Assembly (NCBI GenBank): GCA_025499705.1
Contig: JAFMVE010000008.1
Span: 1 to 64,000, forward strand
Reading direction: 5' to 3'
Source of the DNA: Carboxylicivirga caseinilyticus
Lineage (GTDB): Bacteria > Bacteroidota > Bacteroidia > Bacteroidales > Marinilabiliaceae
DNA length: 64,000 nt
Position numbers and translations under genes: made by a program. The number at the start of each line of letters is the position of its first letter. The stretch's first letter is position 1. This document shows positions 52,154 to 54,198 of the stretch, in pieces. The notes under the pieces were generated by a model. The model had not been told where the DNA came from, ran no database searches, and saw only the letters and a list, made by a program, of their open reading frames with translations.

Positions 52154-52855
52154 CTATATGAATCCCCTGGAACGAGCCAGGCAATACAATAAATTCACAA
52201 TATCATGATCCGACATTGTCATGGCATTGATCTTTAAATCGAAGAAATCTATATCAGGACGACCATTTTCGAAATAATCTCTGAAGTTTGCTCTTCGTTT
52301 ATCCTGTTCTACGCATTCTTTCTTAGCATCACTCAAACTAATATTCTCTTCTTTTGCCACTAGCTCAGCTCTCCATTCCAGTGGTGCTTCCAGCTTAACA
52401 TGAAACGATTGCTTGATATTTTTAGTGATGGCTTCTGCTGCACGACCAACAATTACCACATTGCCTTCCTCTGCTTCATCGTGCAGGAATTTTGCAATGG
52501 TATTCTTAATTTTTGCGTCTCCCGGATAATAAGAACTACTGAAGAACAGTGCCAGGTTTTCAAAAAAGTTTTTCTGACGGTAATCGCTCAAATCCTGAAG
52601 AAGTGCAGGTGTCAGTTTAAGCTCGTTGGCCGATCGTTCCAGAATCTCTTTACTGATCATACGCCACTCTTTATTAATTCCTTCCGCACTTAATTCTTTT
52701 GTGATCTTTTCAGCAAGTAATTGACCGATCTTCTGACCATGACAACCATATTCGCGCGAAATGGTAATTACTGGTCCTGCCAAACCATGTTTGGTTTCAG
52801 GTGCTTTGCGTTGCCCCGAACGCTCTTGCATGTATTTTAGAAACAAATTATCCAT
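52154..52855 (-). CDS. Cytidylate kinase-like protein (PF13189)
   Basis: 233-aa protein of the cytidylate-kinase-like family. The P-loop-like start ITISREYGCHGQKIGQLLA replaces the classical G-x4-GK[ST]. NVVIVGRAAEAITK and the lid-like KRRANFRDYF follow. Nucleoside monophosphate kinase activity is plausible but not proven for this family. The small-RNA array lies upstream on the same strand, so readthrough from that array would reach this gene. Confidence 0.85.
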   Translation of the reverse strand: MDNLFLKYMQERSGQRKAPETKHGLAGPVITISREYGCHGQKIGQLLAEKITKELSAEGINKEWRMISKEILERSANELKLTPALLQDLSDYRQKNFFENLALFFSSSYYPGDAKIKNTIAKFLHDEAEEGNVVIVGRAAEAITKNIKQSFHVKLEAPLEWRAELVAKEENISLSDAKKECVEQDKRRANFRDYFENGRPDIDFFDLKINAMTMSDHDIVNLLYCLARSRGFI

Positions 52856-53033: not shown

Positions 53034-53119
53034 AATAAAAAAAAGGACAGATCGAAAAATCTGTCCTTACCCTTAAATCAGTTCGTTAACTAAATCCAAA
53101 TCTATGAATAAAAATCTAC
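53034..53119 (-). ncRNA. Candidate small RNA, array copy 1
   Basis: Minus-strand unit of about 85 nt. The -7 box CATCTTTG is at 53124-53131, with TTTG at 53156-53159 (24-base spacer). A conserved body follows, then a 10-bp terminator hairpin (53043-53052 with 53059-53068, loop of 6) and a T-run. It is the copy nearest to the cytidylate-kinase-like gene. Confidence 0.6.
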
Positions 53120-53191
53120 AGTGCAAAGATGCATTATATTATAGTAAAGAAACCTCAAACAAGGTTAATTCGTGTTAAATATTTCAGCTTG

Positions 53192-53273
53192 AGACAAAAA
53201 AAGGACAGATTGAGCAATCTGTCCTACCTTATCAGTTCGTTAACCAAATCCAAAATCTATGAAAAAAAATCTA
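53192..53273 (-). ncRNA. Candidate small RNA, array copy 2
   Basis: Same design as copy 1. The -7 box GATATTTG lies at 53279-53286, with upstream TTTG at 53311-53314 (24 bases) or 53304-53307 (17). The terminator stem 53202-53211 with 53216-53225 has loop GAGC and is followed by T8. The stem changes are compensatory: the added T-A pair and altered loop keep 10 bp. Confidence 0.6.
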
Positions 53274-53361
53274 CAATACAAATATCATAATTAATATAGT
53301 GAACAAAATGCAAACAAAGTTAATTCATGTTAAGAGTTAGCAGGTGAGAAGTTTTGAGTAA

Positions 53362-53435
53362 AGAAAAAGGACAGATCGGAAAATCTGTCCTTACCCTTAA
53401 ATCAGCTAACTAAATCCAATTTTTATGAAAATCCC
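53362..53435 (-). ncRNA. Candidate small RNA, array copy 3
   Basis: The -7 box CATATTTG at 53441-53448 and TTTG at 53470-53473, spaced 21 bases, make the best promoter of the three. The terminator stem is 53367-53376 with 53383-53392. Part of the body is shorter than in copies 1 and 2. It lies about 115 bases downstream of the nth stop. Confidence 0.6.
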
Positions 53436-53550
53436 TACTGCAAATATGCAAATTTTATTTACATACTATCAAATTATCACAGTTAATAATTGTTAAATGA
53501 TAAATTAAGGTATTTTGTAGCCTTATACTTACAATTTGTAAGTTAATCAA

Positions 53551-54198
53551 TTAGGCTAACTCTGATTGTTGTAAATAAAACTTGCAAAATTCTTTTAATC
53601 CACATTTGCCACACTTGGGTTTACGTGCAATACAAACATATCGCCCATGCAGAATAAGCCAGTGATGTGCGATGGGTAACAAATCCTCAGGAAAATATTT
53701 CACTAATTGCTTCTCAGTATCAAGGGGTGTTTTCGAATTAGTTGTTAAGCCAATGCGAGCTGCAACGCGAAAAACATGCGTATCAACAGCCATGGCCGGT
53801 TTTTCATAAACAACTGAAGCTATTACATTGGCGGTTTTACGTCCAACACCCGGAAGCTTTTGCAATTCATTAATATCATCAGGTACTATGCCATTAAAAT
53901 CATTAACAAGCATTTGAGCCATGCCAACCAGATGCTTACTCTTATTATTCGGATAACTGCACGAACGAATCAATTCAAAAATTTCTTCAGCGGTTGATAC
54001 AGCCATATCTTCGGCATTTGGATAGCGCTCGAAGATTGCAGGTGTTAATTGATTAACTCTTTTATCGGTGCATTGTGCCGAAAGAATAACAGCCACCAGC
54101 AACTCATAAGGATTTGAATAATGCAGCTCGGTTTCGGCAACCGGCATGTTTTTTTGAAAATATTCGATGGTTCGTTGAAAACGTTCTTTTTTTAGCAT
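53551..54198 (-). CDS. nth: Endonuclease III
   Basis: 215-aa base-excision DNA glycosylase/AP lyase. Helix-hairpin-helix LPGVGRKTANVIA contains the catalytic Lys. The catalytic Asp is in AVDTHVFRVAAR. The [4Fe-4S] loop has four cysteines spaced C-x6-C-x2-C-x5-C in CIARKPKCGKCGLKEFC. The start is the only good ATG. The gene follows the ZIP transporter by 12 bases, so it is probably an operon. Confidence 0.96.
   Translation of the reverse strand: MLKKERFQRTIEYFQKNMPVAETELHYSNPYELLVAVILSAQCTDKRVNQLTPAIFERYPNAEDMAVSTAEEIFELIRSCSYPNNKSKHLVGMAQMLVNDFNGIVPDDINELQKLPGVGRKTANVIASVVYEKPAMAVDTHVFRVAARIGLTTNSKTPLDTEKQLVKYFPEDLLPIAHHWLILHGRYVCIARKPKCGKCGLKEFCKFYLQQSELA

Follow-up and report, generated by a model that had tools for sequence, protein, structure and literature searches.

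Three tandem units lie on the minus strand at 53034–53496 of the window (the whole 64,000-nt stretch analyzed), each made up of a pair of TTAAC boxes, an ANNTTTG box, a body of ~80 nt, and a terminator. They are very likely small-RNA genes, and we find them best explained, with a probability of roughly 0.8, as genes for trans-acting, FopS-like repressors of SusC translation, a reading that draws on computation: the layout of the genes, how they are conserved and covary, their likeness to FopS, and a complementarity biased to susC.

In the proposed mechanism, each unit would be transcribed from its own ANNTTTG-type promoter, the type served by the Bacteroidota housekeeping sigma factor, and would probably be controlled by a regulator reading TTAAC-N5-TTAAC just upstream. 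Transcription would stop at the unit's own intrinsic terminator and yield an RNA of ~80 nt, whose 5′ half bears a seed (UUUAUUCAUAGAUUUGG and variants) complementary to the AUG of susC mRNAs and the bases on either side. In the cell, the paired seed would block translation initiation of the SusC outer-membrane transporter, so that the cell could shut off glycan import posttranscriptionally; copies with slightly differing seeds may favor different susC genes, and an RRM protein and an inducing signal presumably have their part in the response.

Structure and conservation of the tandem units

The sequence-only reading had described three imperfect tandem copies, and we recovered them as direct copies at 53037–53081, 53195–53239, and 53361–53405, spaced 158 and 166 nt apart. 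The predicted RNAs, all on the minus strand, occupy 53036–53119 (copy 1, w1, from the 5′ seed GTAGATTTTTATTCATAGATTTGG... through the T run), 53194–53274 (copy 2, w2), and 53360–53438 (copy 3, w3, with the shorter seed GTAGGGATTTTCATAAAAATTGG...), and match our covariance model R1 with 87.3, 83.2, and 97.2 bits, respectively, all three copies being among the model's own 12 rows. The −7-like boxes CATCTTTG, GATATTTG, and CATATTTG are present, as reported, at 53124–53131, 53279–53286, and 53441–53448 on the same strand, and the ANNTTTG box of each unit ends 2–4 nt before the first modeled base. Further upstream, every unit has two TTAAC boxes 10 bp apart, forming a TTAAC-N5-TTAAC repeat that also recurs family-wide (53164–53178, 53319–53333, and 53482–53496, minus strand); the units thus extend to 53496. 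These box pairs had been overlooked, as had the resemblance to FopS and the susC starts as possible targets.

The terminator hairpins (53043–53068, 53202–53225, and 53367–53392, minus strand) are each followed by a T run as claimed, but the stems are not uniformly of 10 bp, having 11, 10, and 11 pairs. That of copy 2, said to be altered at both ends, does still pair; it has lost one outer A–U pair and has its innermost U·G replaced by U–A, so that compensation is hardly visible within the window itself and is documented by the relatives. Terminator-like sites number 4 in a 2-kb region where shuffles lead to expect 1.5, three of the four being the array hairpins, and the single window RNAs fold only moderately better than shuffles (z of −2.8, −1.8, and −1.7). 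At the gathering threshold, Rfam finds in the window a tRNA as its sole match. The array is flanked upstream by an nth-like gene (53551–54198, minus strand; PF00730 HhH-GPD) and downstream by a cytidylate-kinase-like gene (52154–52855, minus strand; PF13189). The latter adjoins an ordinary gene for a fructosamine-kinase family protein (PF03881; 51294–52151, plus strand).

Searching the same genome (5.65 Mb) with copy 1 revealed another two copies, in tandem, on contig C97, as well as four sites (C44, C68, C69, and C64) that match mainly in the 5′ part, giving five strong copies and four with the same seed region. At E ≤ 0.05, R1 matches 65 of the 71 family genomes, a few of which probably gave rows to the model, and all 14 genomes of the genus with 5–12 matches each. 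Order-wide, 33 of 393 genomes were matched, several by chance; weaker matches such as L140, L144, and L147–L150 were not counted as relatives because they lack the seed. Among 150 places listed from 59 genomes, 69 fall into 29 same-strand arrays of 2–4 units in 21 genomes, with a spacing of 138–219 nt in 38 of 40 steps. The same spot beside nth holds arrays in Carboxylicivirga linearis FB218 (three copies) and Carboxylicivirga sp. M1479 (four), and a single copy was seen near nth in N1Y90, where the locus ends soon after, and in SZUA-609. The closest nth protein, 90% identical, is that of C. linearis, which marks the host as Carboxylicivirga-like and places it, by NCBI taxonomy, in Marinilabiliaceae; ten other close nth loci have no unit within 900 nt downstream of nth. 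Exact-seed scans of viral contigs found nothing.

From 82 family matches, we removed 4 that read the terminator backwards and 6 duplicates (5 of the 6 checked), which left 72 rows. The stem covaries across species: the 71 distinct model-fitted rows show two-sided changes in 9 of 9 pairs with 99.1% of cells paired, and an alignment of 26 members made with MAFFT without structure recovers the same helix, with two-sided changes in 8 of 9 pairs and 93.2% paired, levels reached by 0 of 500 shuffles in either case. We base the covariation claim on these two counts because the count on all 82 matches (72 distinct; 99.4% paired) includes the four backward rows. The earlier observation of stems kept while loops differ is borne out in the relatives, where loops and spacers drift and pairing stays. 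With a promoter-like box and a terminator for each unit, covariation, relatives in most family genomes, and copies such as those on C97 that have neither nth nor the kinase-like gene beside them, the proposal of paralogous small RNAs is the best supported. A subtype resembling GGGGATTTTAATAAAACCTGGATTTAGTTAATCGG, which adjoins a normal copy, has AAT in place of CAT and thus a complement without AUG (L197 1655–1737, L198 1861–1937, L199 963–1037, and L200 1674–1746).

The promoter region lies outside the covariance model. There, TTTG is found at −10 to −5 in 68 of the 72 rows, copy 1 of the window among those with the box in this position class, compared with 4% of shuffled upstreams and 8% of other 9-nt upstream stretches, and we predict the units to carry promoters of the sigma-AB (ANNTTTG) type. 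TTAAC occurs at −60 to −36 in 67 of the 70 rows with sufficient sequence. After exclusion of L177, L188:1720, L137, L163, and L164 from the 72 rows and filtering of two of the remaining 67, the repeat TTAAC-N5-TTAAC occurs without mismatch in 50 of 65 box-aligned rows and with at most two mismatches in 62, compared with 7.8 in shuffles.

Complementarity to susC translation starts

We computed duplex energies for positions −35 to +20 of the 38 susC genes of this genome above the TIGR04056 cut-off and for a comparison set of 200 other ORFs (≥150 aa), drawn from the window plus twelve 20-kb stretches; the energies disregard the folding of either RNA, and the starts are mostly the first ATG. With the first 52 nt of copy 1, the mean energy was −18.93 kcal/mol for susC (n = 38) versus −13.33 kcal/mol for the other genes (n = 200; P = 1.2e-8), a difference reproduced by 0 of 25 shuffled seeds, and the seven best of all 238 genes were susC. 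The corresponding P values for copy 2 (1e-6), copy 3 (0.0047), C97 (4e-6), and C44 (1e-6) are not independent, as the seeds have sequence in common. The signal of copy 1 is confined to 17 nt around CAU (P = 5.7e-8) and is not seen with nucleotides 25–45 alone (P = 0.26), with the 3′ half (P = 0.97), or when the 5′ half is reversed (P = 0.49). When the region was widened to −150 to +100, the best duplex of copy 1 spanned the AUG in 22 of 38 susC genes, compared with 4–11 for shuffled seeds. The genes in susD position in 30 of these operons averaged −13.62 kcal/mol with copy 1, like other genes, and differed from susC in a paired comparison (P = 2.7e-5); across eight related seeds, P for susC versus susD ranged from 2.7e-5 to 0.038. 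As judged from these energies, the array RNAs are predicted to be complementary to susC translation initiation regions, more weakly so for copy 3.

At AUGAAU starts, copy 1 (AUUCAU) is preferred relative to copy 2 (UUUCAU; 8 versus 25 genes, P = 0.008), a hint that the array copies may be specialized toward different susC genes. The best partner of copy 1 is the susC gene at C33:79428, with a bulged duplex of −39.3 kcal/mol over 52 nt, in a locus that, by its Pfam content of GH26, GH5, GH2-type, acetylesterase, epimerase, and alpha-galactosidase genes, is of mannan type. In genomes G410 and G435, tested on the 15 best susC genes each of 46 and 53 matches, housekeeping-type seeds gave P = 0.035 and 0.005 against other genes and 0.094 and 0.032 against susD, and a GATTAGGG seed gave 0.043 and 0.16, respectively, so that two of the five seeds (those with 0.094 and 0.16) fail against susD; for the sigma-54-type seeds of G410, described below, the susC preference had P = 2e-5 and 5e-5.

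The alternative that survives best, although we consider it unlikely, is that the small RNAs are aimed mainly at mRNAs with AUGAA starts in general, those of secreted and outer-membrane proteins, and not specifically at SusC. The seed indeed covers the AUG and A-rich codons that many starts share, energies down to −24.4 kcal/mol are reached by some genes other than susC, and with the C64 seed two such genes (−27.1 kcal/mol) outscore the best susC. Within ATGAA starts, the difference is not significant for copy 3 (P = 0.078), but susC remains the better partner of copy 1 (−19.97 kcal/mol for 33 genes versus −13.91 for 72; P = 4e-8) and of C97 (P = 3e-4); against general targeting also speaks that none of the eight seeds set susD apart from other genes at P < 0.05 (0.055 to 0.85).

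The sequence-only reading had itself offered tandem transcription attenuators, by which the leader of the cytidylate-kinase-like gene would form one mRNA with three conditionally opened terminators. In C. linearis (L010), M1479 (L015), and, as a single unit, SZUA-609 (L019), units likewise separate nth from the kinase-like gene, as such a leader would have it; tblastn, however, found no kinase gene within ~1.5 kb on each side of the copies on C97, C64, C68, C69, and C44, attenuators would not each need the promoter box that nearly all rows possess, and the minimum-energy folds of single units predict the terminator. With copies existing where that gene is not nearby, attenuation is a poor fit and very improbable. 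We give marginally less credence still to RNA sponges that would titrate an RbpB-like RRM protein and pair with no mRNA: FopS RNAs bind RbpB in B. thetaiotaomicron (PMC11697453) and the present genome has one RRM_1 protein, but a pure sponge would have no need of complementarity to susC starts. Nonfunctional mobile-element repeats of the MITE or REP-like kind with a chance hairpin would be multicopy and tandem as these units are, yet they are scarcely credible given that the complementarity is biased to susC and that the promoter box, the paired stem, and the seed all persist as loops and spacers diverge.

A sister branch with predicted sigma-54-type promoters

A second group of FopS-like RNAs includes the copies on C44, C68, and C69 of the same genome, which lack the ANNTTTG box and have instead the sigma-54-like promoters TGGCACAGTACTTGT (L006 1501; C44:114862, plus strand), TGACAGCATTATTGC (L007; C68:223068, plus strand), and TGGCACAAGTCTTGC (L008; C69:29457, minus strand); their terminator stems are unrelated. 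The seed-only pattern ATTTTTTTCATAGATTTGGGTT with at most two mismatches is found in 53 of the 71 family genomes, with one hit listed for a backwards control, and it also picks up GGATT members of the housekeeping branch. The sister set consists of 56 regions hand-picked for the GGGTT form and the three loci above. Upstream of 57 distinct GATTTGGG loci, counts for which are not independent because the set includes many closely related or tandem loci, GGYA-N6-TTG is present in 51 (shuffled mean 0.10, largest 2) and its strict form in 31, and no locus has ANNTTTG within the final 25 nt; in 33 of the 51, the sigma-54-type element ends exactly 12 nt before N-AGATTT. The sister branch is accordingly spaced as a −24/−12 sigma-54 promoter (GG and TTG(C) at fixed spacing), which we predict it to have, and RpoN is encoded in 68 of the 71 family genomes, this one included.

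Terminators were found for 56 of 67 sister hairpin regions and have 51 distinct 5′ arms. AACG is the apical loop of 34 of the 56 stems found and occurs in 56 of the 67 regions (L263–L316, L321, L322, and L006–L008). The sigma-54 motif is mostly absent from the GATTAGGG-seed group of genus g4 (2 of 10). In this genus, the GATTAGGG-seed RNAs L302–L305 and L311 have neither ANNTTTG nor sigma-54 elements; ahead of their seed, a AGACATAAGAAGTT-like stretch is repeated, which may represent a third type of promoter.

By their sequences, then, the housekeeping branch would combine the seed with a TTAAC-N5-TTAAC operator, and the sister branch the same CAUAGAUUUGGGUU-type seed with unrelated stems and a sigma-54 −24/−12 start. 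In the sigma-E/RybB–MicA response, envelope stress stops the synthesis of dominant outer-membrane proteins. We suggest, at somewhat less than even odds, that one susC-silencing seed serves under two sigma factors, of which the sister branch might represent a Bacteroidota counterpart to that response. The sister branch could thereby be tied to envelope stress and shut down the synthesis of SusC transporters; in Flavobacterium psychrophilum, sigma-54 promoters lead to genes of protein quality control and envelope stress (PMC9723704).

Relationship to FopS and other small RNAs

In a permissive Rfam scan of 661 bases, RF04319 (BTncRNA_FopS) aligned end to end (model 1–71 of 71) with copy 2 (53193–53269; 26.0 bits, E 0.11) and copy 1 (53035–53114; 23.2 bits, E 0.39) and no match was listed for copy 3. 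These scores fall well short of the gathering cut-off of 56 bits and, taken alone, are weak because copy 3 is unmatched and the unrelated MicC (23.9) and RefA9 (23.8) reach similar scores there. FopS was not listed at E ≤ 3 in a ten-locus scan including the window region; nothing in the genome exceeds the cut-off, the best match of 32.5 bits lying outside the window, and at E ≤ 10 the search listed 16 weak matches, of which one, on C44, is a sister copy and none coincides with a window copy. The weak match on C58 was rejected as the reverse complement of a susC start, and the others were set aside. Two weak matches with hairpins, L113 (C78:26518, minus strand) and L115 (C105:9521, minus strand), were also seen; the latter lies opposite the likely start of susC C105:9723 and is possibly a cis-antisense RNA.

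Five relatives from other genera reach 29.6–38.5 bits, 38.5 being the best. In the reverse search, model R2, built of 75 rows with none from these loci, found all of the 12 best-scoring FopS loci in place with E from 2e-4 to 0.016, and their upstreams contain TTAA-N6-TTAA in 8 of 12 (0.18 in shuffles) and ANNTTTG in 12 of 12. As their scores are below the cut-off, we call the array RNAs FopS-like and do not file them as members of RF04319; they are predicted to work like FopS. RF04319 itself is above its cut-off in 55 of 295 order genomes, some of the matches being tandem, e.g., three in G133, so tandem copies are not unique to the array family. In several canonical FopS loci (L221–L232), inspection by eye shows a ATGTTnTATnACAT-like stretch downstream of the TTAA repeat and ahead of the promoter box.

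FopS-type control has been described in Bacteroidaceae, and Bacteroidota lack the classical small-RNA chaperones of Pseudomonadota (PMC11697453). A limited literature search found no account of FopS-like RNAs in Marinilabiliaceae or of the sigma-54 branch. What appears to be new is the spread to Marinilabiliaceae, where FopS-like logic is often tandem and has two promoter classes, together with the frequency of tandem arrays, the TTAAC repeat, and the same-seed sister branch behind sigma-54-type promoters. The system offers a handle on how Bacteroidota might jointly control glycan transporters by the dozen, this genome alone having 38 susC genes: the common upstream repeat is a means of finding the regulator, the mannan-type locus on C33 is a named best partner, and the sigma-54 branch may connect envelope stress with transporter synthesis.

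The closest known system is FopS of B. thetaiotaomicron, a set of 14 RNAs, each with an unpaired 5′ seed ahead of a single terminator. There, FopS-10 prevents translation by base-pairing at susC starts (sections 12 and 14 of PMC11697453), RbpB relieves this block, and bile salts induce the FopS RNAs. Like FopS, the array consists of multicopy short RNAs with an ANNTTTG box, an upstream TTAA direct repeat, a single-stranded 5′ seed (UUUUUCAU-G, GAUUU, GUUAA) followed by one intrinsic terminator, and complementarity to susC translation starts. It differs in a predicted length of ~80 nt, compared with the ~65 and ~70 nt that blotting gave for FopS (PMC11697453), in its own diverged seed (CAUAGAUUUGGAUUUAGUUAACGAACUGA), in an extra linker like UUUAAGGGUAAGG in many copies, in a TTAAC repeat nearer the RNA start, and in its sister branch; tandem copies occur among the RF04319 matches too, although the word "tandem" does not appear in the main text of the FopS paper. 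According to the same source, GibS of B. thetaiotaomicron has the R1 seed region in common with FopS but carries an additional seed, R2, and a promoter of a different type, and DonS of Bacteroides fragilis represses a PUL to which it is divergently encoded; no such placement is seen here, the SusC matches on contig C134 lying at 133489 and 156582 and none within 1–64000. Sibling RNAs with overlapping targets are also known as the Cia-dependent small RNAs of streptococci, LhrC of Listeria, and Qrr of Vibrio (PMC11697453, section 14), which, compared by description, belong to other phyla and have other targets.
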